From an uncultured Bacteroidota bacterium (GTDB lineage Bacteria > Bacteroidota > Bacteroidia > Bacteroidales > F082): a DNA stretch of 64,000 nucleotides. The position numbers and the translations under genes were made by a program. The stretch is taken from the NCBI GenBank assembly GCA_913009685.1, contig CAJVXP010000003.1, forward strand, positions 45,999-109,998, in the 5' to 3' direction. Positions 18,177-53,366 of this stretch are shown here, one piece after another. How positions within the stretch are numbered: the first letter of the stretch is position 1; every line of letters begins with the position of its first letter. The notes under the pieces were generated by a model that ran no database searches, had not been told where the DNA came from, and saw only the letters and a program-made list of their open reading frames with translations.

Positions 18177-21100
18177 TTATCCCTGCAACTTTTTAAGACG
18201 TTGTTCGTTATAATATGCCCCAATTACCGCTAATATAATGATTCCCAGTGTGTAATAAACAAAATTGGGAATAGGAACAGGGTAGCCACTGGCGTAGGAA
18301 TGCAATCCTGAGAGATAGTAATTTACCCCGAAATAGGTCATTAAAATGGAGAAGAAGCCGATGATGGAAGCAAGATTAAAGGCGAACCTGGATTTCATCC
18401 CCGGGATATATCGCATATGTGCGATAAAGCTGTAAACCAATATACTGGCCAATGCCCAGGTTTCTTTGGGATCCCAGCCCCAATAGCGTCCCCAGCTTTC
18501 GTTAGCCCATACCCCGCCGAGAAAAGTCCCGATGGCAAGCATATACAAACCGACAATGAGCGTTCGTTCGTTGATAGTAGTCAGCTCTTTAATGTGTTCG
18601 GCCATAATCAAACGATTTTTGGGCGTTTTCATAATCATTAAAATCAGGTTGAAAAAGCCCAACAGAGCACCCAAAGCCAGGAATCCGTAGCTCGCTGTGA
18701 TTACGGAAACGTGAATAGTCAGCCAGTAGGATTTCAATACGGGTACGAGGTTGGTAATTTCCGGATCCATCCAGCTTAAATGTGCCACAAACAGGATAAT
18801 GGAAGCGAGTAAAGTAGTGGCGGCTATCGTCATTTTCGACCGTCTTGAAAACAGTAAACCCGCCAGCACTGTAACCCATCCAATGTAAATCATTGACTCA
18901 TAACCATCGCTCCACGGGGCATGTCCCGAAATATACCAGCGAAGTCCAAGCCCGAAGGTCTGTAATAAAAATCCTATAAAAATGATGCCCACAAAGAAAT
19001 TCAAAATTATCCGGAGAGCTTTATTGTCTTTAAAAATGGCGACAAACGTCAGGACAATCATAATCAGGCCTATTATGCTATACGCAATGGCGAGTCGAAA
19101 GAAAATCGTCCAGCGGTTGTAAAGAATTTCGGCATCGATTTTCCTCTGCGAAGGAATCAGTGTGGCGCCGTATTTCTTTTGATATGAAGCAAAATCTGTC
19201 AACAGCTTATGGGCCAGTTTTGTCTCCCCATTTGCCAGCGACTGTAAATATTGAGGGATAACACTGACAACCATCAGCGAATCTTGTCCTGACAAGGTAG
19301 TGGGCTTCGATGCCGGTGAGTACCAGGCATGATGCGGGTCTTTCGAATCAGGTATCATTTTAAGAAATCGTCCCGTATAAATCATGTAGGCAATGTTCAT
19401 ACGTTCGTCCACTTTCATAACCTCCTTATCGAACATGCCTCTCTGTGAAGGGTTTTCAGAATAAACCTCCGAAACGTATTTTTGAAGTTTGTACGTATTA
19501 TTTCTCATGTCGATAAAGTCAAAATAGGAGGCGTATTTTCCTTTTATGCCAATAATCTTAGCCAGTTTTTTACTGGAGACTTTAATCATGGGAACCTGTT
19601 GCCAGTACATTGGATTGCTCATCATTCCCAGCAAAACCTGGTCGGGAGTCAGACCGTGGAAACTGCTTTTCCATGTTAGCTTTCTCAATATCTCACTTGC
19701 CAAAGTGTTCACCGGCTTTATTCTGCCGTCGTTGGATTGTACCAAAAGATGACCAAATTGATTAGCCTCCGTTTTGTTTATTTTCGGAATCTTATTAAAA
19801 TTCAAATGCCCGTGCTGGTGGGCATAACCGGCTGTTGAAAAAGTGGCTGTGAAAAACAGTATAAGAAGAATTGCTTTGGCTGTTGCCGAGGTTTTTCTCA
19901 AATATCTTCCCAGGGCAGAAAAATGGCTGTTGGCGTTCAGTAGTGACAGGAACATACCCAAAGCCATCAGAAGATAACCCAAATACGTAAAGAAAGTTCC
20001 CCAATAGTCGTGGTTTACCGAAAGAATGCTGCCGTGCTCATCCCGGTCGTAAGAAGATTGGAAAAACCGGTATCCTCTGTAATTTAAAACATGGTTCATA
20101 TAAATATGGTAAGGCATATTAAGATTTTTTTCTTTATCAATAACGATCACACGACTGGCATAACTCGAAGGGCTCATGGAACCGGGATAACGCTTCAGCT
20201 CAAATTTTTTCAGTTTAATAGAAAAAGGCAGCTTTATCTCATTAGAGCCATAATCCATTTTTATATTGATGTCGTTAAGTGTGAAAGAGTTTTCCTTCCC
20301 ACGATAACCTTTTCCTCCTCTGAGCATAACCTCTTTTGACTGGTTCCCCGACGTGGCTTTCACAACCAGCACGTCCATCAAATTGGCATTTTTGTTCCCA
20401 TTGGGCACGTAATCTATTTTGCCATGAGCATAAAAATTAGTCAAAACAATATCCAGTCCGTTTTCGCTGTATAGTTTTCCTTTTTCCAAAGGATAGGGTT
20501 TGCCGGGAGCCAGATTAGCAGATGGTCCGCCCTGCATATAGGAGGTGATGCGAATCGAATCCGGAGACGTAATGAAAAGCAAGCCCTCTTTTAAGGAAAT
20601 ATTCACCGCTGTGGTGTCATTTGCTTTTCCAAATTTTATCACATGATGTCCCACTTGTTGTTCATCACCGTTTTTAAGATAAAGATTCTGTCTGCCCTTA
20701 CCGGTTGAGACAACCAAAGTAATCAGAGGGGCTCCGCTTTTGCCTTCGGAAATTACTTCATGGGCATTGGGAATGAATCTAACTGCTTCTAATTCAATGC
20801 GTTTGTCGCCAACCTTCAAATTTTGGTGATAGGCATCTGGTGTTAGAACGGAAATAAGCACATGTTTCTCTGCTTTAGCAGAAGCTTCACCGGTTACGGC
20901 GCTGACCTGTACATAGGTACGGTTGGAAAGTATAGAGCCGGAGGTTTCTCCTTCACGCAAATGCATCATGCCGTCAAAGCTTACAAAACGGGTGATGGCT
21001 GCTCCCAAAAGGATAATCAGAAAAGCGAAATGGAAAAGGAACATCGTAAATTTCCCCCTGCGATACATGCGAAACCGGATAATGTTGGCAATCAGATTTG

Positions 21101-21275
21101 CAGCCAGCAAACCAAGCAAAACATCAAACCATGTAGCATTGTAAACCACAGCCTGGGCTGCCGTACTGCCAAAATCGTTTTCGATAAAGGTAGCTGCTCC
21201 AATGCTAAAGGTGAAAATCAGAATTAAAACGCCCATGCTCTGCATGGAAAAAAATATATTGGATAACTTTTTCAT
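18177..21275 (-). CDS. Cytochrome c biogenesis fusion protein, ResB/CcsB + CcsA type
   Basis: 1032 aa; N-terminal ResB-like region, C-terminal CcsA with tryptophan-rich heme motif WANESWGRYWGWDPKETWAL. Confidence 0.93.
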   Translation of the reverse strand: MKKLSNIFFSMQSMGVLILIFTFSIGAATFIENDFGSTAAQAVVYNATWFDVLLGLLAANLIANIIRFRMYRRGKFTMFLFHFAFLIILLGAAITRFVSFDGMMHLREGETSGSILSNRTYVQVSAVTGEASAKAEKHVLISVLTPDAYHQNLKVGDKRIELEAVRFIPNAHEVISEGKSGAPLITLVVSTGKGRQNLYLKNGDEQQVGHHVIKFGKANDTTAVNISLKEGLLFITSPDSIRITSYMQGGPSANLAPGKPYPLEKGKLYSENGLDIVLTNFYAHGKIDYVPNGNKNANLMDVLVVKATSGNQSKEVMLRGGKGYRGKENSFTLNDINIKMDYGSNEIKLPFSIKLKKFELKRYPGSMSPSSYASRVIVIDKEKNLNMPYHIYMNHVLNYRGYRFFQSSYDRDEHGSILSVNHDYWGTFFTYLGYLLMALGMFLSLLNANSHFSALGRYLRKTSATAKAILLILFFTATFSTAGYAHQHGHLNFNKIPKINKTEANQFGHLLVQSNDGRIKPVNTLASEILRKLTWKSSFHGLTPDQVLLGMMSNPMYWQQVPMIKVSSKKLAKIIGIKGKYASYFDFIDMRNNTYKLQKYVSEVYSENPSQRGMFDKEVMKVDERMNIAYMIYTGRFLKMIPDSKDPHHAWYSPASKPTTLSGQDSLMVVSVIPQYLQSLANGETKLAHKLLTDFASYQKKYGATLIPSQRKIDAEILYNRWTIFFRLAIAYSIIGLIMIVLTFVAIFKDNKALRIILNFFVGIIFIGFLLQTFGLGLRWYISGHAPWSDGYESMIYIGWVTVLAGLLFSRRSKMTIAATTLLASIILFVAHLSWMDPEITNLVPVLKSYWLTIHVSVITASYGFLALGALLGFFNLILMIMKTPKNRLIMAEHIKELTTINERTLIVGLYMLAIGTFLGGVWANESWGRYWGWDPKETWALASILVYSFIAHMRYIPGMKSRFAFNLASIIGFFSILMTYFGVNYYLSGLHSYASGYPVPIPNFVYYTLGIIILAVIGAYYNEQRLKKLQG

Positions 21276-21355
21276 ATTATTTTGGTTGTTTTGATGAAAT
21301 AGTAACTCATGTCCTTATTTTTTTAAAAGATGATTAATGTTTTAAAAGCATGTTA

Positions 21356-21410
21356 CAAAATTAATTTACCATCCGGGGTACATGTTACATAATTATGGCA
21401 AAAACTTATA
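21356..21410 (-). promoter_or_regulatory. Shared 27-bp motif plus TAATTTTG -7 element upstream of the cytochrome c biogenesis gene (site A)
   Basis: Reverse strand TATAAGTTTTTGCCATAATTATGTAAC, 20 nt, TAATTTTG; closely similar to 49324-49379. Confidence 0.75.
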
Positions 21411-24515: not shown

Positions 24516-25103
24516 ATGGCCGAGATCAAATTGAAAAAGTTGTTTATTAAAAATATGGTTTGTAACCGATGCATTATGGCTGTGGAAATCGAACTGAAAA
24601 AACTAAATTTAAAACCGGTTTCTGTGATACTCGGAGAAGCTGTAATTGAAGCCGAGCCGGATTCCATAGCTCTTGCGAAGCTGAACAAAAACCTGCAATC
24701 CATTGGCTTTGAGCTTATCGATGACAGAAAAAGTCAACTGGTCGAGCAGATGAAAACAGAAATCATCCGGTATATCCATTATGATAAGGAGATTGACGGA
24801 TACATAAATTTCTCTGAGCATTTGTCCCGTACCTTAAGGCTCGAATATTCCTATCTTAGCAATCTTTTCTCTTCCGTAGTGGGGACAACCATTGAGAAAT
24901 ATATCATCCTGCAGCGTATCGAAAAAGTCAAAGAGCTGCTGGTTTATGGCGAGCTTACCCTTTCCGAAATCGCCTGGCAGACCGGCTACAGCAGTGTGCA
25001 GCACCTTTCCAATCAGTTTAAGAAAATCATAGGCATGAGTCCTATGGCCTATAAAAAAATGCAGGAATATAACCGGAAGACGCTGGACCAGGTGGGGAAA
25101 TAA
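24516..25103 (+). CDS. AraC-family regulator with N-terminal heavy-metal-associated (HMA-like) domain
   Basis: LFIKNMVCNRCIMAVEIELKKL (CxxC metal-binding loop) followed by AraC HTH LSEIAWQTGYSSVQHLSNQFKKIIGMSPMAYKKM. Confidence 0.88.
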   Translation: MAEIKLKKLFIKNMVCNRCIMAVEIELKKLNLKPVSVILGEAVIEAEPDSIALAKLNKNLQSIGFELIDDRKSQLVEQMKTEIIRYIHYDKEIDGYINFSEHLSRTLRLEYSYLSNLFSSVVGTTIEKYIILQRIEKVKELLVYGELTLSEIAWQTGYSSVQHLSNQFKKIIGMSPMAYKKMQEYNRKTLDQVGK

Positions 25104-28468: not shown

Positions 28469-28524
28469 TATAACTCTTTTCCAAAATTGTGTAACAGCAA
28501 CCTGCTGGTACTCATCTAATTTTG
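28469..28524 (+). promoter_or_regulatory. Shared 27-bp motif plus TAATTTTG -7 element upstream of the cusCBA-like operon (site B)
   Basis: TATAACTCTTTTCCAAAATTGTGTAAC, 21 nt, TAATTTTG. Confidence 0.65.
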
Positions 28525-28637: not shown

Positions 28638-29906
28638 ATGAAAATAAAGACATTGCTGTTTCTAATGACTTCCCTGTTTTTAGGGGGCGTATTGTCGGCC
28701 CGAAACACCGGGTCGTTGCAGGAACTGGTAAAGAAGGCCGTGGAGGTCAATCCCAAAATCAAATCGTTGCAGGCCAAATTAAATGTTGCCAGAGAAAACA
28801 TTTCCATTGGGACAAATCTTCCTGACCCTGTTTTTACGGTAGGATTGCTCAATGTGCCTGCTAACACGTTTTCGTTCAGGCAGGAAGCCATGACCGGTAC
28901 TGCGCTGAACCTCTCGCAAACTATTCCGTTTCCCGGCGCGCTAAAAGCCAAAGCCGAAGTAAAAGCCATGGATACCCTGATTGTCAAACAGGAAATTGGT
29001 GACCTGAAAAATCAAATTGCACAGCAAATGGCCATACTTTATTATACCCTTCAGGAGAAACGGCGCGAAATAGTCCTGACCAAAGAGAGTGTGGATTTGT
29101 TGAAACAGATCTCTCTGGTGGCCAAACGAAAATTTGAGGTGGGAACAGCCAGCCTCGAAAATATTGTACAGGTAGAGGTGCAGATAACCCGTGTAAAAGA
29201 TAAAATAGAGGCGCTGAAAGGAGATGCACAGTCGATGCAGGCGCAGATGAATGCCTATCTGCTACGCGATGAACGGACTACCATTGCTACGCCGAAAATC
29301 CGGCCTATAAGCCATGAAATTTTTGTGACCGATACCCTGTTAAAACTTGCTGCCCTTAATCGCCCCCTGTTAAAAGGAATAAAACTCTACCAGACCAAGG
29401 CAGTGTTACAGCAAAAAGAGGTTGAAAAAAAATACTATCCTAATTTTAAAGTTGGCCTGCAATATACTCTACGGAGCTATAACCAGACCACCGGTAAAAA
29501 TTATCCTGATTTTCTCGGACTTGTTGTGGGGGTTACCATTCCTCTGGGCTACGGCGGAAACATAAAAGCTCAGGTAAATAAAACACGGTATCTGCAGGAT
29601 TATTATGGTCAGCAATTTCATTCTTCCCTGCAAATCCTGCAACAGTCGTTTGGAAAAATCAATGCTAAAATCAACGAACTCCGCAGCCGTGAGAAACTTT
29701 TATCTAAAACCATGTTGCCGCAAACCATTCAGGCTTATCAGGCTGCCCTGGCCGATTACCAGGTGAATAAAATTGATTTTGTGAATGTAATCAAAGCGGA
29801 AGACGATATCTTAAAAATAAAAACAGAGCTGGCAAAACTGCGTACCAGTTATACTATTCAGATTGCGCAACTCAAATTCTTAACCGGTTCAAAATTAACC
29901 TATTAA
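28638..29906 (+). CDS. TolC-family outer membrane protein (CusC-like)
   Basis: LQELVKKAVEVNPKIKSLQAKLNVA...LSQTIPFPGALKAKAE...; adjacent to CusB and CusA homologues. Confidence 0.92.
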   Translation: MKIKTLLFLMTSLFLGGVLSARNTGSLQELVKKAVEVNPKIKSLQAKLNVARENISIGTNLPDPVFTVGLLNVPANTFSFRQEAMTGTALNLSQTIPFPGALKAKAEVKAMDTLIVKQEIGDLKNQIAQQMAILYYTLQEKRREIVLTKESVDLLKQISLVAKRKFEVGTASLENIVQVEVQITRVKDKIEALKGDAQSMQAQMNAYLLRDERTTIATPKIRPISHEIFVTDTLLKLAALNRPLLKGIKLYQTKAVLQQKEVEKKYYPNFKVGLQYTLRSYNQTTGKNYPDFLGLVVGVTIPLGYGGNIKAQVNKTRYLQDYYGQQFHSSLQILQQSFGKINAKINELRSREKLLSKTMLPQTIQAYQAALADYQVNKIDFVNVIKAEDDILKIKTELAKLRTSYTIQIAQLKFLTGSKLTY

Positions 29907-29923
29907 TTGAAAAAAGCAAAAAC

Positions 29924-31300
29924 ATGAATAAGAAATTTTTTATCTACACAACTTTAATAGTAATCGGTGCTGCACTTGGCGCCGGAGGATACTATTTTTA
30001 TGCGGGAAAAACCTTGAAACAAGAAGCTTCTTCCACAAAAAGTGAAACAAACCAAAAGTCAGGCAAAACCAAAAGAAAGGTCTTGTTCTGGCGTGCCCCC
30101 ATGAATCCGAATGAGATACATGATGCTCCGGGCAAATCATCCATGGGCATGGAATTAATTCCTGTTTATGCCGACGCTTCCGGTGCAGCCGGTGTTGTTT
30201 CCGTCAACCCTGTTATGCAGCAGGATATGAACGTGAAAATCGCAACAGTTAAAGCGGGTGAGTTAAATGCCGATGTGCTGACAAACGGTATTCTGGATCC
30301 TGATGAACAAAAAGAGTATGTGGCTACTACAAAGATTGGTGGCTGGATTGATAAGATGTACATCAACTACACCGGACAAAAAGTACACAAAGGCGATAAG
30401 CTGATTAAGATTTATTCGCCCGATCTGGTGGCGGCACAGGAGGAATACCTGACTGCATTAGCCTATGATAATGCTATGAGTACTTCTGGAGCAAGGAGTA
30501 ATTTAACAAAAAATGCTATCCGGAAATTGCAACTGCTCGATGTTACAAATGCCGAGATTCAACATCTGAAAGAGACAAAAAAGGCAAAGAAATACATTAT
30601 TCTCACCGCTCCTTTCGATGGAACCGTCTTGTACAAGGGAGTTGACGAAGGTGCCAAAATCAACAGAGGGACACCCTTACTAAAAATTGCCAACTTGCGT
30701 AGTTTATGGATTCTTGCCGATATTTATGAGTACGAGTTGTTTAAAATCGGACTGGGTGATAAGGTACAGGTGACGTTTGATTACCTTCCGGGTAAAGTTT
30801 ATACAGGAAAAGTTTCTTTTATTTATCCTACACTTGATACAAAAACGCGTACCATCAAGGTACGTATTGATCTTCCCAACCCCAATGGAGAGCTAAAGCC
30901 GGGTATGTTTGCTTCGGTTGACATCAAAGGGAAAAGTTTTGGTGTTCATCCTCTTGTTCCCGAGCAGGCCATATTACGCAGCGGAAGGGTGAATACGGTT
31001 ATTGTCGCTTTGGGAGGCGGAAAATTTAAGCCGGTACAAATTGAGCTTGGCGCTTATTCCAAAGGCTATTATCAGGTACTGAGCGGGTTGAAAGCCGGAA
31101 CACGCATTGTGACCTCGGCACAATTCCTCATTGACTCCGAGTCTAACCTGAACGCTGCATTAAGTGGTTTCATACCTTCCTCATCAAACAAAAATGCCAA
31201 AGGCAGGCAGGCTGATGTCAAAAAAGAAAAGAAGGATATGAAAGGCATGGACATGAAAAAGGCAGCTGGTAAGAAGGTCAAAGGGAAAGGAAGCCGTTAA
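29924..31300 (+). CDS. RND efflux periplasmic adaptor (CusB-like)
   Basis: WRAPMNPNEIHDAPGKSSMGMELIPVY metal-binding segment plus HlyD-like adaptor body; Met/Lys-rich C-terminus. Confidence 0.94.
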   Translation: MNKKFFIYTTLIVIGAALGAGGYYFYAGKTLKQEASSTKSETNQKSGKTKRKVLFWRAPMNPNEIHDAPGKSSMGMELIPVYADASGAAGVVSVNPVMQQDMNVKIATVKAGELNADVLTNGILDPDEQKEYVATTKIGGWIDKMYINYTGQKVHKGDKLIKIYSPDLVAAQEEYLTALAYDNAMSTSGARSNLTKNAIRKLQLLDVTNAEIQHLKETKKAKKYIILTAPFDGTVLYKGVDEGAKINRGTPLLKIANLRSLWILADIYEYELFKIGLGDKVQVTFDYLPGKVYTGKVSFIYPTLDTKTRTIKVRIDLPNPNGELKPGMFASVDIKGKSFGVHPLVPEQAILRSGRVNTVIVALGGGKFKPVQIELGAYSKGYYQVLSGLKAGTRIVTSAQFLIDSESNLNAALSGFIPSSSNKNAKGRQADVKKEKKDMKGMDMKKAAGKKVKGKGSR

Positions 31301-31491
31301 TTTGAAAGCCATTGACAAAAGCGGAGACATCAACCCTTATGACATTATGAATCAGAGTTTAATATCATATAATTCAGGTGCTTATATCGTTTGGAGCATG
31401 AAACTTCGTAATAAACGTGTTGGTTATCTAAAAAATAATTTGAAAAACACGGGCTCTCTTATAACTAAACTCATATAAAAAAGGAGATAAA

Positions 31492-34400
31492 ATGACACCT
31501 ATAGAAAATAAAAAGGAAGGCTTTTTAGCTAAAATTATAGAATGGTCTCTCAACAATAAGGCGATGGTCATTATTCTGACTGTGGTCTTAATATTAGTCG
31601 GTGGTTACGCTATAAAAAATACCGCCGTGGATGCCATCCCCGACCTCAGTGATGTGCAGGTAATTATTCTTACAAAATTTCCCGGACAGGGTCCTCAGAT
31701 TGTGGAAGATCAGGTTACTTACCCCATCACTACCAAAATGCTTTCAGTTGCCGGAGCCACAGATGTAAGGGGCTATTCTTTTTTCGGCTTCTCGCTGGTT
31801 TATATCATTTTTGATGATAATACCGACCTCTACTGGGCACGAAGTCGTGTACTGGAATATCTGAGTTCAATGCGAAGTCAACTGCCTAAAGGAGTTTCGC
31901 CCGAACTGGGGCCTGATGCCACAGGCCTGGGGTGGGTATATGAATATGTATTGAAATCTAAAAAGAGAAGTCTCGCACAATTACGTTCCATACAGGACTG
32001 GTTTTTGCGCTACCAATTATCTGCAGTCCCGGGCGTAGCTGAGGTGGCCAGTATCGGTGGCTTTGTAAAACAGTATCAGGTGAACATCAATCCAATAAAA
32101 CTGGCCTCTTACAACATTTCTCTCGCCAAGATAAAAAAGGCCATTCAGCAGAGCAACAATGATGTAGGCGGCAGATTGCTTGAGATGGGAGAAATGGAGT
32201 TTATGGTTCGTGGTCTGGGCTACATAAAAAGCGTTAAAGACCTCCAAATGATTGCTATTGGGGTAAACCAGGCCACAGGTACCCCCGTTTATCTGAAAGA
32301 TGTGGCAAATATTGACATTGGTCCTGAATTACGCCGGGGAGTGGCTGATTGGAACGGCAAGGGTGAAGTGGTAGGTGGTATTGTGATCCAGCGTGTTGGA
32401 GAGAACGGCTTAAAAGTTATAGAACGTGTCAAGAAAAGGCTGGCGGAATTGAAGAAATCACTTCCGGCTGATGTGCAAATCCTTACGGCTTATGACCGAT
32501 CCGGACTCATTGACAGGGCTATCGACAACCTTAAAGATAAGTTGCTCGAAGAGATACTGATTGTTTCATTGGTTATCTTTGTCTTTCTTTTTCACTTCCG
32601 AAGTTCGCTGGTGGCTATTTTTACACTTCCCGTGGCAACGGTGGGCGCATTGCTTATCATGCACTTGCAGGGACTTAACGCAAACATCATGTCGCTTGGG
32701 GGGATAGCGATTGCCATTGGGGCCATGTCGGATGCTGCCATTATCATGGTTGAGAATGCGCAGTTTCATGTGTTGCACAACCAGTTGAAGCCGAAGGAAG
32801 AGCAGAAACCGCACTGGGCAGTTATTTTGGATGCTTCAAAAGAAGTAGGCCCTACAATCTTCTTCGCTCTACTCGTTATTGTTGTTTCTTTCCTTCCGGT
32901 ATTTGCACTTCAGAATCAGGAAGGCCGGTTATTCAAACCTCTGGCTTATACGAAATCCTATTCTATGGCCGTTGCAGCTCTTCTCGCTATCACCATTGTT
33001 CCCGTTTTAATGCACTTTTTTATTCGTGGGAAAATGGTGAAGGAAGAAGATAATCCGATTACAAGATTCCTGATGAATATTTATCATCCCATTGTCGATT
33101 TTGTAATGAAAAAGAGATGGCTTGTGATAATTTCAGCCTTGTTGATTGTTGCTGCTACCTTGTTCCCATACAAAAAGCTTGGCTCGGAATTTATGCCGCC
33201 ACTCTTTGAGGGTGATCTGCTTTACATGCCCAGTACTTTACCTGGAATTTCCATTACGAAAGCCCGTGAGCTGTTACAGCAAACCGATAAAATCATTAAA
33301 TCATTTCCCGAAGTAGAGTCCGTCTTTGGTAAAATAGGAAGAGCAGAGACTGCCACCGACCCGGCTCCTTTGTCGATGATTGAAACTGTGGTCAGGCTAA
33401 AACCGAAGAGTGACTGGCCCAAGGATATTACGGTTAAAGACTTGATCAGTAAAATGAATGGTGCCCTCAATATACCAGGTGTTACCAATGTGTGGACTAT
33501 GCCTATCAAGGCAAGGACGGATATGCTTTCCACCGGGATAAAAACTCCCGTAGGTATAAAAATTGGTGGCCCCGATTTGGGTGTACTCCAACGTCTTGGG
33601 AAAGAAATTGAAAAGGTGATTCGAAAAGTCCCCGGAACACGATCGGTTTATGCCGAACGCTCCGAAGGGGGTAATTATGTTGACTTTGACATTGATCGGG
33701 ATGCCATCGCTCGTTACGGTCTTACCGTTGGCGCTGTGCAGGATGTCTTTATGTCTGCTGTAGGCGGGATGAATATAACCAAAACAGTGGAAGGGCTGGA
33801 GCGTTATCCTGTTAATTTAAGGTACCAACGCGACTACAGAGAAAATATACCTGCCTTGAAGCGGGTATTGGTTTCACTTCCCAAAGGGGGAAATATTCCG
33901 CTTGACCAGCTGGGAACTTTTGTGGTGAAGAAAGGCCCTCCCGCCATCAAATCGGAAGATGCTATGCCTAATGCCTGGGTTTATGTTGATATAAAAAATA
34001 CAGACCTCGGTTCCTATGTAGAAAAAGCAAAGAAAGCTGTCGAAGCGCAAATACATCTTCCTCAGGGATATTCATTGATATGGAGCGGGCAGTTTGAATA
34101 CATGGAGCGTGCCAACAAAAGACTGGCACTCGTTATTCCAATTACGCTGTTTTTGGTGAGTTTGCTACTCTATTTTAACACTAAGTCATTTGTGAAAACA
34201 GGTATTATCTTACTCTCACTGCCTTTCTCTCTCGTGGGTGCTATTTGGTTCCTCTATTTTGCCGGCTTCCACATGAGTGTTGCTGTTTGGGTAGGTATGA
34301 TTGCCTTGCTGGGTGTGAGTGCCGAGATTGCGGTTGTTATGATGCTCTACCTTGACATTGCCTATGACAAGGCAGTAAAACAAGGCAAAATGCATTCGTT

Positions 34401-34668
34401 GAAAGATTTGCGCGAGGCAATCTTTGATGGTGCGGTAAAACGTATCCGGCCTACTATGATGACCGTTCTGGTGCTGGCTCTTGGTCTGTTGCCAATTATG
34501 ATTGGGAATGCTACCGGTAACGATGTGATGAAACGGATTGCAGCACCTATGATCGGTGGTATTTTTACCACTATGCTACTGGGACTAACTATTTTCCCGG
34601 CGATCTTCTATATTATTAAAAAAAGAAAATTTAAGAAAACTGCTTTAATTGAGGAGCAGCAGAACTAA
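31492..34668 (+). CDS. Heavy-metal RND efflux pump (CusA/CzcA family)
   Basis: 1058 aa, NTAVDAIPDLSDVQVIILTKFPGQGPQIVEDQVTYPITTKMLSV, GGIAIAIGAMSDAAIIMVENA. Confidence 0.96.
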   Translation: MTPIENKKEGFLAKIIEWSLNNKAMVIILTVVLILVGGYAIKNTAVDAIPDLSDVQVIILTKFPGQGPQIVEDQVTYPITTKMLSVAGATDVRGYSFFGFSLVYIIFDDNTDLYWARSRVLEYLSSMRSQLPKGVSPELGPDATGLGWVYEYVLKSKKRSLAQLRSIQDWFLRYQLSAVPGVAEVASIGGFVKQYQVNINPIKLASYNISLAKIKKAIQQSNNDVGGRLLEMGEMEFMVRGLGYIKSVKDLQMIAIGVNQATGTPVYLKDVANIDIGPELRRGVADWNGKGEVVGGIVIQRVGENGLKVIERVKKRLAELKKSLPADVQILTAYDRSGLIDRAIDNLKDKLLEEILIVSLVIFVFLFHFRSSLVAIFTLPVATVGALLIMHLQGLNANIMSLGGIAIAIGAMSDAAIIMVENAQFHVLHNQLKPKEEQKPHWAVILDASKEVGPTIFFALLVIVVSFLPVFALQNQEGRLFKPLAYTKSYSMAVAALLAITIVPVLMHFFIRGKMVKEEDNPITRFLMNIYHPIVDFVMKKRWLVIISALLIVAATLFPYKKLGSEFMPPLFEGDLLYMPSTLPGISITKARELLQQTDKIIKSFPEVESVFGKIGRAETATDPAPLSMIETVVRLKPKSDWPKDITVKDLISKMNGALNIPGVTNVWTMPIKARTDMLSTGIKTPVGIKIGGPDLGVLQRLGKEIEKVIRKVPGTRSVYAERSEGGNYVDFDIDRDAIARYGLTVGAVQDVFMSAVGGMNITKTVEGLERYPVNLRYQRDYRENIPALKRVLVSLPKGGNIPLDQLGTFVVKKGPPAIKSEDAMPNAWVYVDIKNTDLGSYVEKAKKAVEAQIHLPQGYSLIWSGQFEYMERANKRLALVIPITLFLVSLLLYFNTKSFVKTGIILLSLPFSLVGAIWFLYFAGFHMSVAVWVGMIALLGVSAEIAVVMMLYLDIAYDKAVKQGKMHSLKDLREAIFDGAVKRIRPTMMTVLVLALGLLPIMIGNATGNDVMKRIAAPMIGGIFTTMLLGLTIFPAIFYIIKKRKFKKTALIEEQQN

Positions 34669-35632: not shown

Positions 35633-36325
35633 ATGGGATTTGATAAGACTTTAGATTGTTCCAACTGTTCATTGGCATCATCGGTTTTTTGTCATTTAGA
35701 GCCTGATGAACTGGATAGAATTGAGAATTCCCGAATAGAAGTAACCTATCGTCCCGGAGAAACCATCATTAAAAACGGGACGCCGAATACTCATGTGATT
35801 TCATTCAACCAGGGATTGGCAAAAGTAACTCTGGAGGGGAAGAATGGGAAACATTTCATCCTTGACTTTATCCGGCCACAATCTTTTTTCTCAGGTCCCG
35901 GTTTATTTATTGATAAAAAGCATCATTTTACTATTACTGCTGTTGAGTCATGCAAATTATGTTTGATAGAAATGGGCACTTTTCTTGATATTATGAAAGG
36001 AAATGCCAGGATGGCTTTTGACTATATAGAAAACTCAAATTACTTCATCCTAAACATGGCAAATAAGATGGAAAGCCTTTTGGTAAAGCATCATCATGGC
36101 AGGGTGGCTGAAGCATTGCTTTATTTAAGTGGGAAAATCTATAAAAGCAATCCATTCGATCTGAGTATTTCAAAAAGTGATTTATCTGAAATGACCGGAT
36201 TATCCAAAGAAAGCGTCTCCCGCATATTGCATGAATTCACTAACGAAGGCCTCATTCTGGTTACGGGCAAAACCTTTCATCTTCTTAAAGAAGATTTGCT
36301 TGAGCAAATTAGCAGGAACGGATAG
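35633..36325 (+). CDS. Crp/Fnr-family transcriptional regulator with N-terminal Cys cluster
   Basis: DCSNCSLASSVFCHLE N-terminus; cNBD; HTH SKSDLSEMTGLSKESVSRILHEF. Confidence 0.92.
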   Translation: MGFDKTLDCSNCSLASSVFCHLEPDELDRIENSRIEVTYRPGETIIKNGTPNTHVISFNQGLAKVTLEGKNGKHFILDFIRPQSFFSGPGLFIDKKHHFTITAVESCKLCLIEMGTFLDIMKGNARMAFDYIENSNYFILNMANKMESLLVKHHHGRVAEALLYLSGKIYKSNPFDLSISKSDLSEMTGLSKESVSRILHEFTNEGLILVTGKTFHLLKEDLLEQISRNG

Positions 36326-49323: not shown

Positions 49324-49379
49324 TATAAGTTTTTACCATAATTATGTAACATGTAACGCCGGATGATGAATTAATTTTG
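49324..49379 (+). promoter_or_regulatory. Shared 27-bp motif plus TAATTTTG -7 element upstream of DUF302 gene (site C)
   Basis: TATAAGTTTTTACCATAATTATGTAAC, 21 nt, TAATTTTG. Confidence 0.78.
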
Positions 49380-49422
49380 TGACATGATTCAAAAAGTATT
49401 AATCATCTAAAAAAACAAAGAC

Positions 49423-49809
49423 ATGAGTTACTATTTCACCAAAACATTAAAAGGAGCTTCTTTTGAAGAAGCCATCGACCGCACAAAAAAAGCATTGAAA
49501 GAAGAAGGCTTTGGTGTGGTTGCCGAAATTGATTTTCAAAAGACATTAAAGGAAAAGTTAAACGTGGATTTCAGGAAATACCGGGTTTTGGAAGCCTGCA
49601 ACCCTCCTTACGCTTTAAAGTCCCTGACGGCCGATGACAAAATCGGAACTATGCTTCCCTGTAACCTTATCGTTCAGAAAAACGGGGGCCAGGTAGAGGT
49701 GAGCTCTATAGATCCTGTTGCCGCGATGGCGGAAGTCGATAATGAAGAGATGAAAGGCATTGCCTTGGAAATAAGCGAAAAACTAAAGAGGGTGGTTGCT
49801 TCTTTGTAA
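49423..49809 (+). CDS. DUF302-domain protein
   Basis: SFEEAIDRTKKALKEEGFGVVAEIDFQKTLKEKLNVDFRKYRVLEACNPPYALKSLTADDKIGTMLPCNLIV. Confidence 0.95.
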   Translation: MSYYFTKTLKGASFEEAIDRTKKALKEEGFGVVAEIDFQKTLKEKLNVDFRKYRVLEACNPPYALKSLTADDKIGTMLPCNLIVQKNGGQVEVSSIDPVAAMAEVDNEEMKGIALEISEKLKRVVASL

Positions 49810-49926: not shown

Positions 49927-49982
49927 TATAAGTCTTTCCCATAATTGTGTAACGCCTAAGAGACTGTTTGATACTATGTTTG
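49927..49982 (+). promoter_or_regulatory. Shared 27-bp motif plus TATGTTTG -7 element upstream of 49999 (site D)
   Basis: TATAAGTCTTTCCCATAATTGTGTAAC, 21 nt, TATGTTTG. Confidence 0.75.
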
Positions 49983-49998: not shown

Positions 49999-50316
49999 AT
50001 GAAAAATTATCTGAATACAGTACGGTTTCAATCGGAAAAGATTATTTCCGGGGAATATGAAAACAACGTTCAGCAAGAGTTAAACGGATTAGAAGGGGTT
50101 GAAGGCCTGCATTTTGGCCTGGATTTTGTAGATGTTGATTACTACCCGCAACTGGCATCCCCTGACTCTCTCAGAAAAGCCTTGTCGAGGGTTCCATTTG
50201 ATTTTCGGGAATCGCCTGCCAAGCGTAATCGCGGACTTTTTAGCGGTCTGATTTCAAACATGGCAAAGGAAAACAAAAAAACGTTTGGGAAAAAAGGCCC
50301 TTCCTGCTGTGGATAA
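49999..50316 (+). CDS. Hypothetical protein with C-terminal SCCG
   Basis: Own promoter-like motif upstream; ORF of 105 aa ending KKGPSCCG. Confidence 0.7.
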   Translation: MKNYLNTVRFQSEKIISGEYENNVQQELNGLEGVEGLHFGLDFVDVDYYPQLASPDSLRKALSRVPFDFRESPAKRNRGLFSGLISNMAKENKKTFGKKGPSCCG

Positions 50317-50579: not shown

Positions 50580-50798
50580 ATGATGAATTTTGGGAATATG
50601 GGCTGGGGAATGGGTTACTGGTGGATAGGTGGCCTGGTAATGATGGCTCTCTTTGTCTGGTTGCTGTATACCCTCTTCGGCAGAAATTCTGTTGAAAACA
50701 GATATCGTATGGAAACGGCTCGTGATATACTGTTAAAAAGGTATGCCCGCGGCGAAATTACCAAAGAAGAATATAACAGCATTTTAAAGGATATTTAA
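50580..50798 (+). CDS. SHOCT-domain membrane protein
   Basis: TM segment then ARDILLKRYARGEITKEEYNSILKDI. Confidence 0.88.
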   Translation: MMNFGNMGWGMGYWWIGGLVMMALFVWLLYTLFGRNSVENRYRMETARDILLKRYARGEITKEEYNSILKDI

Positions 50799-50870: not shown

Positions 50871-53366
50871 ATGGATACTCATTCAAAAGCAAATAAAAAA
50901 GGGGAGGAGGGAAACATAAATTATTTCTGCTCCATGCGCTGCGAAGGCGACAAAACTTACGATCATCCGGGCGATTGCCCTGTTTGCGGAATGCATTTGG
51001 TTCCTGTGGGCGGTCCCTCGGGAGCACACGGTGAACAACACAGCCACACGCCGGCACCTCATGTGCATACACACGACGAACATGATCATACACACGAGAT
51101 GAAGAAGCCGGCACATTCGCCAATGGCTTCAGATTCCGGAAAATACTACTGTTCCATGCGCTGCGAAGGCGACAAAACTTACGATCAGCCGGGCGATTGT
51201 CCGGTTTGCGGAATGCATCTGATAAAGGAAGTAAGTCTGAAAAGCAAAAAACAGGTGGTATATTCCTGCCCTATGCATCCTGAGGTAAAAAGTGATAAAC
51301 CCGGTTCCTGTCCAAAATGCGGGATGGACATGGTTCCGGAAAAAGGAGTTGAGAAAAGCGAGGAGGAAATAGCCTATAAGAAAATGGCGCATCGTTTTTG
51401 GTTCGCCCTGATTCTCTCTGTACCCGTCCTCATCATCTCCATGTCCGATTATGTTTCTTTCCTTGATTTCACAAAAATAGCACCCGAAATGGTTTGGCGG
51501 TGGATTCAGTTTGCTTTGACAATCCCTGTAGTCTTTTATTCAAGCGGTGAATTCTTTGTCCGGGGCTGGAATTCAATAAGGAGGTGGTCGCCAAATATGT
51601 GGACGCTTATCTCTCTCGGCGTGGGAGCCGCTTTTCTGTTTAGTGTGTTGGGAATGTTTTTTCCCGGATTTTTCCCCGTTCAATTCAAGGATGCCCAGGG
51701 TTATGTTCATCTCTATTTTGAAGCGGCAGCATTTATCCTTACACTGGTACTTTTAGGTCAGGTTCTGGAATTACGCGCCCACAGCAAAACCAACACAGCC
51801 ATAAAAGCGCTGCTAAACCTCGTTCCTCCAATAGCAAGGGTAATTCGCAACGGGAAAGAGCAGGAAATTCCCGTTGAAGAGGTCATGGTCGGTGATATCC
51901 TTCAAATCCGTCCGGGAGAAAAGATCCCTGTGGATGGTACTATTTTCGAGGGGGCTGCTGTCGTTGACGAAGGCATGATTACCGGAGAATCCATCCCGGT
52001 AGAAAAACTTGAGGGAGAAAAGGTCATCGGTGGCGCTGTTAATGGCAGAACGACCTTTAAAATGAAAGCCGAGAAGGTTGGCTCTGATACGTTGCTTGCT
52101 CAAATCATTGAGATGGTGAACAAAGCAAGTCGCTCCAGAGCGCCTATCCAAAAGCTGGCAGATACGGTAGCAAAATATTTTGTGCAGGTGGTGATTTCGA
52201 TTGCTGTTATAACCTTTGCTGTCTGGTATTTCTGGGGACCTGAGCCGGCACTTGTGTATGCCTTTGTGAATGCTATTGCAGTACTGGTGATTGCCTGCCC
52301 TTGTGCTCTGGGCCTGGCAACCCCCATGTCTATTATGGTTGGTACCGGACGGGCAGCCCAATCGGGTGTGTTGGTGAAAGATGCCGCAGCTATAGAAGAA
52401 ATGAATAAGATAGATACCGTTATTGTGGACAAAACAGGTACGCTGACCGTAGGGAAGCCTGCTTTGAGATCCTATGTCTCTTTCAACAATAATAAAAAGG
52501 ATGATGAAATTTTGCAACTCGCGGCTTCGGTTGATAAGAACAGCGAACATCCTGTGGCCGAGTCCATAGTGAAAGGAACTCGTGCCAAAAACATTCCTCT
52601 TTTGGAGGTAGATGATTTTGAGGCGGTTACAGGAATGGGAGTTCAGGCAAAACTAAACGGAAAAAAAATTGGGCTGGGAAATTTGCGTCTCATTGAATTT
52701 TTTGGAGCAGAATTACCAAAAGAGAATAGAGCGTTGGCAAAAAAATGGCAGCAGTCCGGGCAAACTGTTATGTTTCTGATTATTGATAAAAATGTGGAAG
52801 GGATGGTAAGTGTAGCCGATAAAATTAAAGAGACTTCTGCAGCAGCCATAAAATCGTTGCACAAGTCCGGACTTAAGGTGATAATGCTTACCGGTGATAA
52901 CGAATTTACGGCAAAAGCCATTGCTACCGAAATGGGTATTGATGCCTATCAGGCCGATTGCCTTCCGGAAGACAAATACAATAAGGTAAAAGAATTACAG
53001 GAACAGGGACATGTTGTAGCCATGGCCGGAGATGGTATTAACGATGCGCCGGCACTGGCATTGGCCAATATTGGCATTGCCATGGGTACCGGTACCGACA
53101 TCGCCATGCAAAGCGCCGAGATTACCCTTGTAAAAGGCGATTTGAACGGAATTGTAAGGGCACATGACCTGAGCAGGAAGGTGATGCGTAATATAAAACA
53201 AAACCTGTTTTTTGCCTTTGTTTATAATTCTATTGGCGTTCCCATAGCTGCTGGTGTACTCTTCCCGTTTTTCGGAATTCTATTGAGTCCTATCATTGCC
53301 GCAGCTGCCATGAGCTTTAGTTCAGTTTCGGTTATTTCGAATGCCTTACGGCTTAAAAATCAATAA
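50871..53366 (+). CDS. Copper-type P1B ATPase with three N-terminal Cys-rich metal-binding modules
   Basis: CPCALGLATP, DKTGTLTVGK, HP motif SEHPVAESI, GDGINDAPALA; N-term CSMRCEGDKTYD-PGDCPVCGMHL twice, CPMHPEVKSDKPGSCPKCGMDMV once. Confidence 0.96.
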   Translation: MDTHSKANKKGEEGNINYFCSMRCEGDKTYDHPGDCPVCGMHLVPVGGPSGAHGEQHSHTPAPHVHTHDEHDHTHEMKKPAHSPMASDSGKYYCSMRCEGDKTYDQPGDCPVCGMHLIKEVSLKSKKQVVYSCPMHPEVKSDKPGSCPKCGMDMVPEKGVEKSEEEIAYKKMAHRFWFALILSVPVLIISMSDYVSFLDFTKIAPEMVWRWIQFALTIPVVFYSSGEFFVRGWNSIRRWSPNMWTLISLGVGAAFLFSVLGMFFPGFFPVQFKDAQGYVHLYFEAAAFILTLVLLGQVLELRAHSKTNTAIKALLNLVPPIARVIRNGKEQEIPVEEVMVGDILQIRPGEKIPVDGTIFEGAAVVDEGMITGESIPVEKLEGEKVIGGAVNGRTTFKMKAEKVGSDTLLAQIIEMVNKASRSRAPIQKLADTVAKYFVQVVISIAVITFAVWYFWGPEPALVYAFVNAIAVLVIACPCALGLATPMSIMVGTGRAAQSGVLVKDAAAIEEMNKIDTVIVDKTGTLTVGKPALRSYVSFNNNKKDDEILQLAASVDKNSEHPVAESIVKGTRAKNIPLLEVDDFEAVTGMGVQAKLNGKKIGLGNLRLIEFFGAELPKENRALAKKWQQSGQTVMFLIIDKNVEGMVSVADKIKETSAAAIKSLHKSGLKVIMLTGDNEFTAKAIATEMGIDAYQADCLPEDKYNKVKELQEQGHVVAMAGDGINDAPALALANIGIAMGTGTDIAMQSAEITLVKGDLNGIVRAHDLSRKVMRNIKQNLFFAFVYNSIGVPIAAGVLFPFFGILLSPIIAAAAMSFSSVSVISNALRLKNQ

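Follow-up and report, generated by a model that had tools for sequence, protein, structure and literature searches.

Cytosolic Cu(I) is sensed by regulators such as CueR, a member of the MerR family, and CsoR, which both control genes of the copA type. The carrier CopZ and the HMA domains of ATP7B and CopA share a ferredoxin-like fold with an MxCxxC motif. Tandem direct repeats with a pitch of 21 bp constitute the target of E. coli AraC, an activator of the AraC/XylS family that acts at araI1-I2 and contains a sugar-binding cupin as sensor. Finally, promoters recognized by the primary sigma factor of Bacteroidota are defined by a -7 element with the consensus TAnnTTTG, described in B. fragilis and F. 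johnsoniae, and a -33 element with the sequence TTTG, the former being established for the phylum whereas this is much less the case for the latter (PMC7366714).

In the stretch of 64,000 nucleotides analysed here, which we refer to as the window, a single gene located between sites A and B of a recurring 27-bp element codes for a protein termed HMA-AraC. Its N-terminal domain has the fold and the MxCxxC motif in common with CopZ and the HMA domains of ATP7B and CopA, but it is fused to a DNA-binding domain and would act as a sensor instead of a carrier. With E. coli AraC, the protein shares an AraC-type DNA-binding domain and two promoter-adjacent half-sites at a pitch of 21 bp, whereas an HMA domain takes the place of the cupin and the second half-site (box 2) is located about 10 bp closer to a -7 element of the Bacteroidota type than in pBAD. 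The proposed likeness to CueR and CsoR would concern the sensing of cytosolic Cu(I) and the control of copA-type genes, whereas their fold and operator are unrelated to those of HMA-AraC. To the reading that HMA-AraC is a one-component copper regulator, probably responding to Cu(I)/Ag(I), and that the 27-bp element serves as its operator, we assign a probability of about 0.8. The features of the window are listed in Table 1.

Table 1. Operator sites, -7 elements, regulator and predicted target genes in the window, sorted by position.
Feature	Position	Strand	Remark
ResB-CcsA fusion, cytochrome c assembly (predicted target)	18177-21275	-	same site at the orthologue in G003
12-codon remnant of DUF302 gene start, MSYYFIKTTKII plus stop codon	21272-21310	-	stop overlaps resB start codon as ATGA
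-7 element TAATTTTG	21356-21363	-	20 nt after operator A
Operator, site A	21384-21410	-	consensus match
HMA-AraC regulator; AraC DNA-binding domain preceded by a CopZ-like ferredoxin fold containing MVCNRC	24516-25103	+	sole homologue in G000
Operator, site B	28469-28495	+	consensus match
-7 element TAATTTTG	28517-28524	+	21 nt after operator B
cusCBA-like operon	28638-34668	+	OEP 28638-29906, CusB 29924-31300, CusA/CzcA RND 31492-34668
Operator, site C	49324-49350	+	boxes TATAAG (49324-49329) and TGTAAC (49345-49350); precedes DUF302 gene
-7 element TAATTTTG	49372-49379	+	21 nt after operator C
DUF302 protein (predicted target)	49423-49809	+	same promoter in orthologues of relatives G003, G004, G009, G011
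Operator, site D	49927-49953	+	consensus match
-7 element TATGTTTG	49975-49982	+	21 nt after operator D
105-aa protein, C-terminal CC motif (NCBIfam NF040898, putative metal-binding 'LDCC')	49999-50316	+	first gene toward Cu-ATPase
SHOCT small protein	50580-50798	+	own operator in several relatives
Copper-translocating P-type ATPase, three HMBD domains	50871-53366	+	TIGR01511 above cut-off

A search with the 27-bp consensus TATAANTNTTTNCCANAATTRTGTAAC, tolerating up to three mismatches, recovered four matches in the window, each of them exact, at the very places where a first-pass annotation of this DNA had located them. The total of four given in that annotation has to be raised for the 2.1-Mb genome (G000), where a fifth exact match is found on the minus strand (G000:C6:71513-71539) and no sequence matches with one to three mismatches, as determined by a mismatch-tolerant pattern search in an assembly of 87.8% completeness from which sites may be missing. 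There was no match in 100 dinucleotide shuffles of the window, nor did the reversed control pattern match anywhere in the 2.1-Mb genome. All five sites are intergenic, each precedes a gene in its own orientation, and none is contained within a coding sequence. The objection anticipated in the first-pass annotation, a motif that would be widespread or extend into coding regions, does not apply to an element that is rare and found only upstream of genes. Chance or the spread of a dispersed repeat could be invoked to explain the similarity between the sites, and the extended identity of sites A and C, which originates from a promoter duplication, would be in line with it. Nevertheless, the probability of such an artefact is negligible: beyond the motif, the remaining sites show no relationship (with 50-60% identity over 105 nt in the other promoter pairs of the genome), and shuffles, control patterns and the conservation of the architecture across the phylum rule it out.

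The element consists of a tandem direct repeat TRTAAC-N15-TGTAAC with a pitch of 21 bp from start to start. This organization had escaped the first-pass annotation, which had correctly delimited the 27-bp motif, and it is evident from relatives, since the first box reads TGTAAC in many of them. Matches to the consensus with up to three mismatches are present in 35 out of 100 genomes of relatives. Fixed parts in 62 sites of the Cu class include TRTAA in boxes 1 and 2, whose constancy is partly imposed by the search pattern, TCTTTTCCA between the boxes and AATT preceding box 2. The upstream flank of this class often reads AAAATCA, which is replaced by GTGTGAATGA in a second class. A palindromic reading of the segment CAYAATTRTG, as would be appropriate for CRP- or MarR-like proteins, was rejected, since a full palindrome is found in only three of the five sites whereas relatives conserve the direct repeat.

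The position of the operator relative to the -7 element is fixed, with a spacer of 20 nt at site A and 21 nt at the other four sites, and the primary-sigma consensus TAnnTTTG is present at all five. The constant spacing claimed for the window is thus borne out, and a peak at a spacer of 21 nt is recovered in the loci of relatives. While sharing the -7 element with primary-sigma promoters of Bacteroidota, the operator promoters lack the TTTG at -33 and contain a TGTAAC box there instead. None out of 88 sites has a TTG 18-22 nt before the -7 element, indicating that the -33 box is absent and that box 2 (TGTAAC) is found in its place, as had been proposed initially. With its fixed spacing, TGTAAC could also represent a -35 box containing AAC, in which case the element would be the extended core promoter of an alternative (ECF-type) sigma factor and contain no activator site. 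We give very little credence to this idea, since the downstream element conforms to the primary-sigma -7 consensus TAnnTTTG (PMC7366714), a similar box 21 bp further upstream would be needless for a sigma factor, and the motif tracks HMA-AraC.

The relationship to the regulator was quantified in 79 loci (0.74 Mb) surrounding HMA-AraC genes, which were chosen regardless of the motif and in which TRTAA repeats were counted for pitches of 10-40 and spacers of 10-40. The combination of pitch 21 and spacer 21 to nAnnTTTG accounts for 31 counts, compared to 45 in the other 960 combinations together, and the same cell is empty in ten shuffles of these loci. In a second set of 77 loci, fetched independently from a genome collection and belonging to Bacteroidota and Ignavibacteria, including Pedobacter, Mucilaginibacter, Pontibacter, Dysgonomonas, Dyadobacter, Segetibacter, Phocaeicola and others, this combination was counted 34 times versus 111 times over the 958 other cells. 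Many sites share the orientation of the HMA-AraC gene and are located 7-80 bp downstream of it, ahead of the following gene. A weaker second peak at pitch 30 and spacer 21, with 4 matches in the 79-locus set and 10 in the 77-locus set, stems from a word reading TGTAA or TGTGA that precedes box 1 by 9 bp and might represent the distal contact point of half-site 1.

Regulator and motif also co-occur at the level of genomes. Within the family of the window, 29 out of the 47 genomes that encode HMA-AraC contain the motif, as opposed to none of the 13 that do not (p = 5e-5, a value that is inflated by kinship). Among 398 Bacteroidota genomes, which are partly incomplete and in which sites of close relatives are not independent, those containing HMA-AraC show 306 matches to the architecture versus 75 for the reversed control, and those lacking it show 25 versus 41. 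The absence of an excess in genomes without HMA-AraC is the telling part of this co-occurrence. The motif accompanies the genes and genomes of the very protein that had been singled out by the first-pass annotation, in which the spread across the phylum and a Cys-less branch without a link to metal genes had been missed. With a strict pattern, a site is detected near 29 of the 83 HMA-AraC genes around which loci were collected and within 5 kb of 10 out of 51 regulators of the CxxC type, suggesting that many of the latter use distant or degenerate sites or none of this type.

A genuine activator site could also be bound by another regulator, such as the CRP/FNR protein encoded at 35633-36325, the one following site 5, or a response regulator, with HMA-AraC being a passenger in metal clusters. 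The adjacency of CRP/FNR genes to the cus operon and to the fifth site and the full palindrome found in some of the sites would be consistent with this proposal, which we nevertheless regard as quite improbable. What is conserved is the architecture of a direct repeat, of the kind bound by AraC proteins, and not that of a CRP-type palindrome, and its excess is confined to genomes with HMA-AraC. Moreover, an excess is also observed in loci of Cys-less HMA-AraC proteins without metal genes, to which the passenger idea is inapplicable.

The properties of HMA-AraC as preferred candidate were characterized by sequence and structure comparison. The protein matches HTH_18, the DNA-binding domain of the AraC/XylS family, above cut-off (E 1.2e-18), whereas the match to Pfam HMA (E 7.7e-4, 20.2 bits) is by itself below the cut-off of 24.8. 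A profile of 36 relatives detects ATP7B (1.2e-11), CopZ (1e-3) and also the metal-binding domain of CopA, and the HMA domains of known structure that come closest belong to copper proteins. Both C16 and C19 are invariant in an alignment of HMA-AraC proteins (A4), although in the collection-derived set this conservation is partly due to selection, since the search favoured MVCxRC. An AlphaFold2 model calculated from 36 relatives (mean pLDDT 88) displays a beta-alpha-beta-beta-alpha-beta unit followed by an all-helical AraC domain, and Foldseek aligns it to the DNA-binding domains of AraC, MarA, SoxS and AdpA with a TMt of about 0.7-0.8 and, more weakly, to CopZ and MerP. The regulator is hence of the AraC type and not of the MerR or CsoR type. 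Public records name such proteins just 'AraC family' or 'helix-turn-helix', and a literature search covering open-licence papers, with subscription journals outside its scope, found no paper on this regulator. A distant group of homologues (L194, L197, L192 and L196, for example L194:5010-5567) contains CDCC in the metal loop and none of this operator nearby.

The genes downstream of the operator are predominantly related to copper handling. Among 71 first genes following Cu-class sites, 28 encode HMA domains and 24 P1B ATPases, and further targets comprise OEP/CusC, DUF302 and HMBD proteins, multicopper oxidases, ArsP-type permeases, SHOCT proteins, cytochrome c and ResB-CcsA. Relatives thus place the operator before CopA ATPases, CusC, DUF302 and multicopper oxidases, and this conservation of copper-gene targets lends substance to the metal regulon proposed from the window. 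The 105-aa protein with the CC motif, whose promoter is the same in G003, G009 and G011, has no Pfam match and is likely to bind metal. The fifth site (in L005) is located 5' of a gene for a CRP/FNR-type regulator of 211 residues, which suggests a second regulatory layer under metal control. The usual sensors of cytosolic copper are almost missing: CsoR was not found in G000 and is restricted to 8 out of 100 relatives, in none of which a CueR equivalog was detected that exceeds its cut-off. Proteins of the MerR family that score lower than this cut-off do occur, and further copper sensors could be among them.

The target genes also bear on the identity of the signal. HMA-AraC might use the operator but sense another thiophilic metal (Zn, Cd, Hg), or thiol or redox stress via its CxxC motif. 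The range of soft metals bound by HMA domains is not limited to one, and neither pumps of the CusA/CzcA type nor SHOCT/HMBD proteins are specific for copper. Moreover, the targets include three ArsP-like permeases, with an HMA domain in one of them or more, and a protein involved in cytochrome c assembly. Since multicopper oxidases and P1B-type CopA ATPases are copper-specific targets, the latter being represented in the window by a protein that scores above the cut-off of TIGR01511, and since the nearest solved HMA domains are those of copper proteins, we consider a different signal unlikely.

The first-pass annotation had noted the site but had overlooked the origin of the region upstream of the ResB-CcsA gene. 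Over 105 nt encompassing promoter, leader and first codons, it shares 80% identity with the DUF302 gene. Judged by this identity, the ResB-CcsA promoter and leader (21272-21410) are a copy of the DUF302 region (49324-49450), which represents a case of promoter capture. The 12-codon leader open reading frame that overlaps the resB start might possibly confer translational coupling. The orthologue in G003 is equally preceded by an operator site and a related leader, so that the capture is probably older than the split between G000 and G003. The view that cytochrome c biogenesis is an unrelated function weakening the regulon was ruled out by the copied DUF302 promoter and the site in G003. Copper damages the cytochrome c assembly pathway, and a control of this pathway by copper would fit such damage.

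A separate branch of the family has an altered metal site. In a clade of 27 HMA-AraC homologues (support 100/99), the first cysteine is replaced by serine in 25 proteins, turning MVCxRC into MVSxRC. This SxxC branch includes L163 (5004-5558, with its site at L163:5566), L164, L168, L175, L179 and others, whose sites contain the same core together with the GTGTGAATGA extension and a cAccTTTG -7 element. Regions of the recognition helices are nearly alike in the two branches (YLSNLFS/SSVQHLSNQF compared to YLSNIFS/SSVAHLSNQF), as would be expected for a shared DNA code. The targets of the SxxC branch encode ice-binding, YtxH, cupin, OmpA/Gly-zipper, ferritin-like, rubrerythrin and CsbD proteins, a composition that could possibly reflect a general-stress regulon, and in two loci the HMA-AraC gene itself is a target. 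Since the same operator core is used before non-metal genes in this branch, the operator alone is no proof of a metal response.

At the level of sequence, the motif, its repeat, the fixed phasing, the missing -33 box, the classes of targets and the association with the regulator are established. We infer from these features that HMA-AraC binds the element, activates transcription and responds to copper, and propose the following mechanism. The AraC domains of two HMA-AraC monomers would bind in tandem to half-sites resembling AATnnTRTAAC, which are separated by 21 bp and thus by two helical turns. The promoter-proximal box, ending 20-21 nt before TAnnTTTG, would position one of them in place of the -33 box in a class-II-like geometry. 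Metal binding to the MxCxxC motif of the N-terminal HMA domain would switch the protein to its activating state, with the DNA-bound dimer or pair of monomers being the entity that is switched next to RNA polymerase, and the activated regulator would recruit RNA polymerase with the primary sigma factor. The predicted regulon of G000 encompasses five promoters, those of cusCBA, DUF302, the run of 105-aa protein, SHOCT protein and Cu-ATPase, ResB-CcsA and the CRP/FNR-type regulator.

Operator and HMA-AraC together probably constitute the on-switch of the copper response in Bacteroidota. A broader proposal, to which we give even odds as a whole, is that the phylum would rely on HMA-AraC as its principal sensor of cytosolic copper, separate from CueR, CsoR, CopY and CusR and acting on a precisely phased operator that is found phylum-wide, and that a branch, in changing MVC to MVS, would have kept the operator core and re-used it for a general-stress-like regulon (YtxH, CsbD, Gly-zipper OmpA, ferritin-like and ice-binding proteins). 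Copper sensing is little described in Bacteroidota, which are dominant in the gut and in many soils and waters. With a sensor, an operator and a phasing rule at hand, the question becomes directly testable in cultured Pedobacter, Mucilaginibacter, Dysgonomonas and Pontibacter, and the same features predict a design of metal-inducible promoters for a phylum with few such tools. If the proposal is correct, a metal sensor would have turned into a stress regulator that reads an unchanged DNA code, providing an example of how a branch of such sensors can forgo the metal site and still retain the code.
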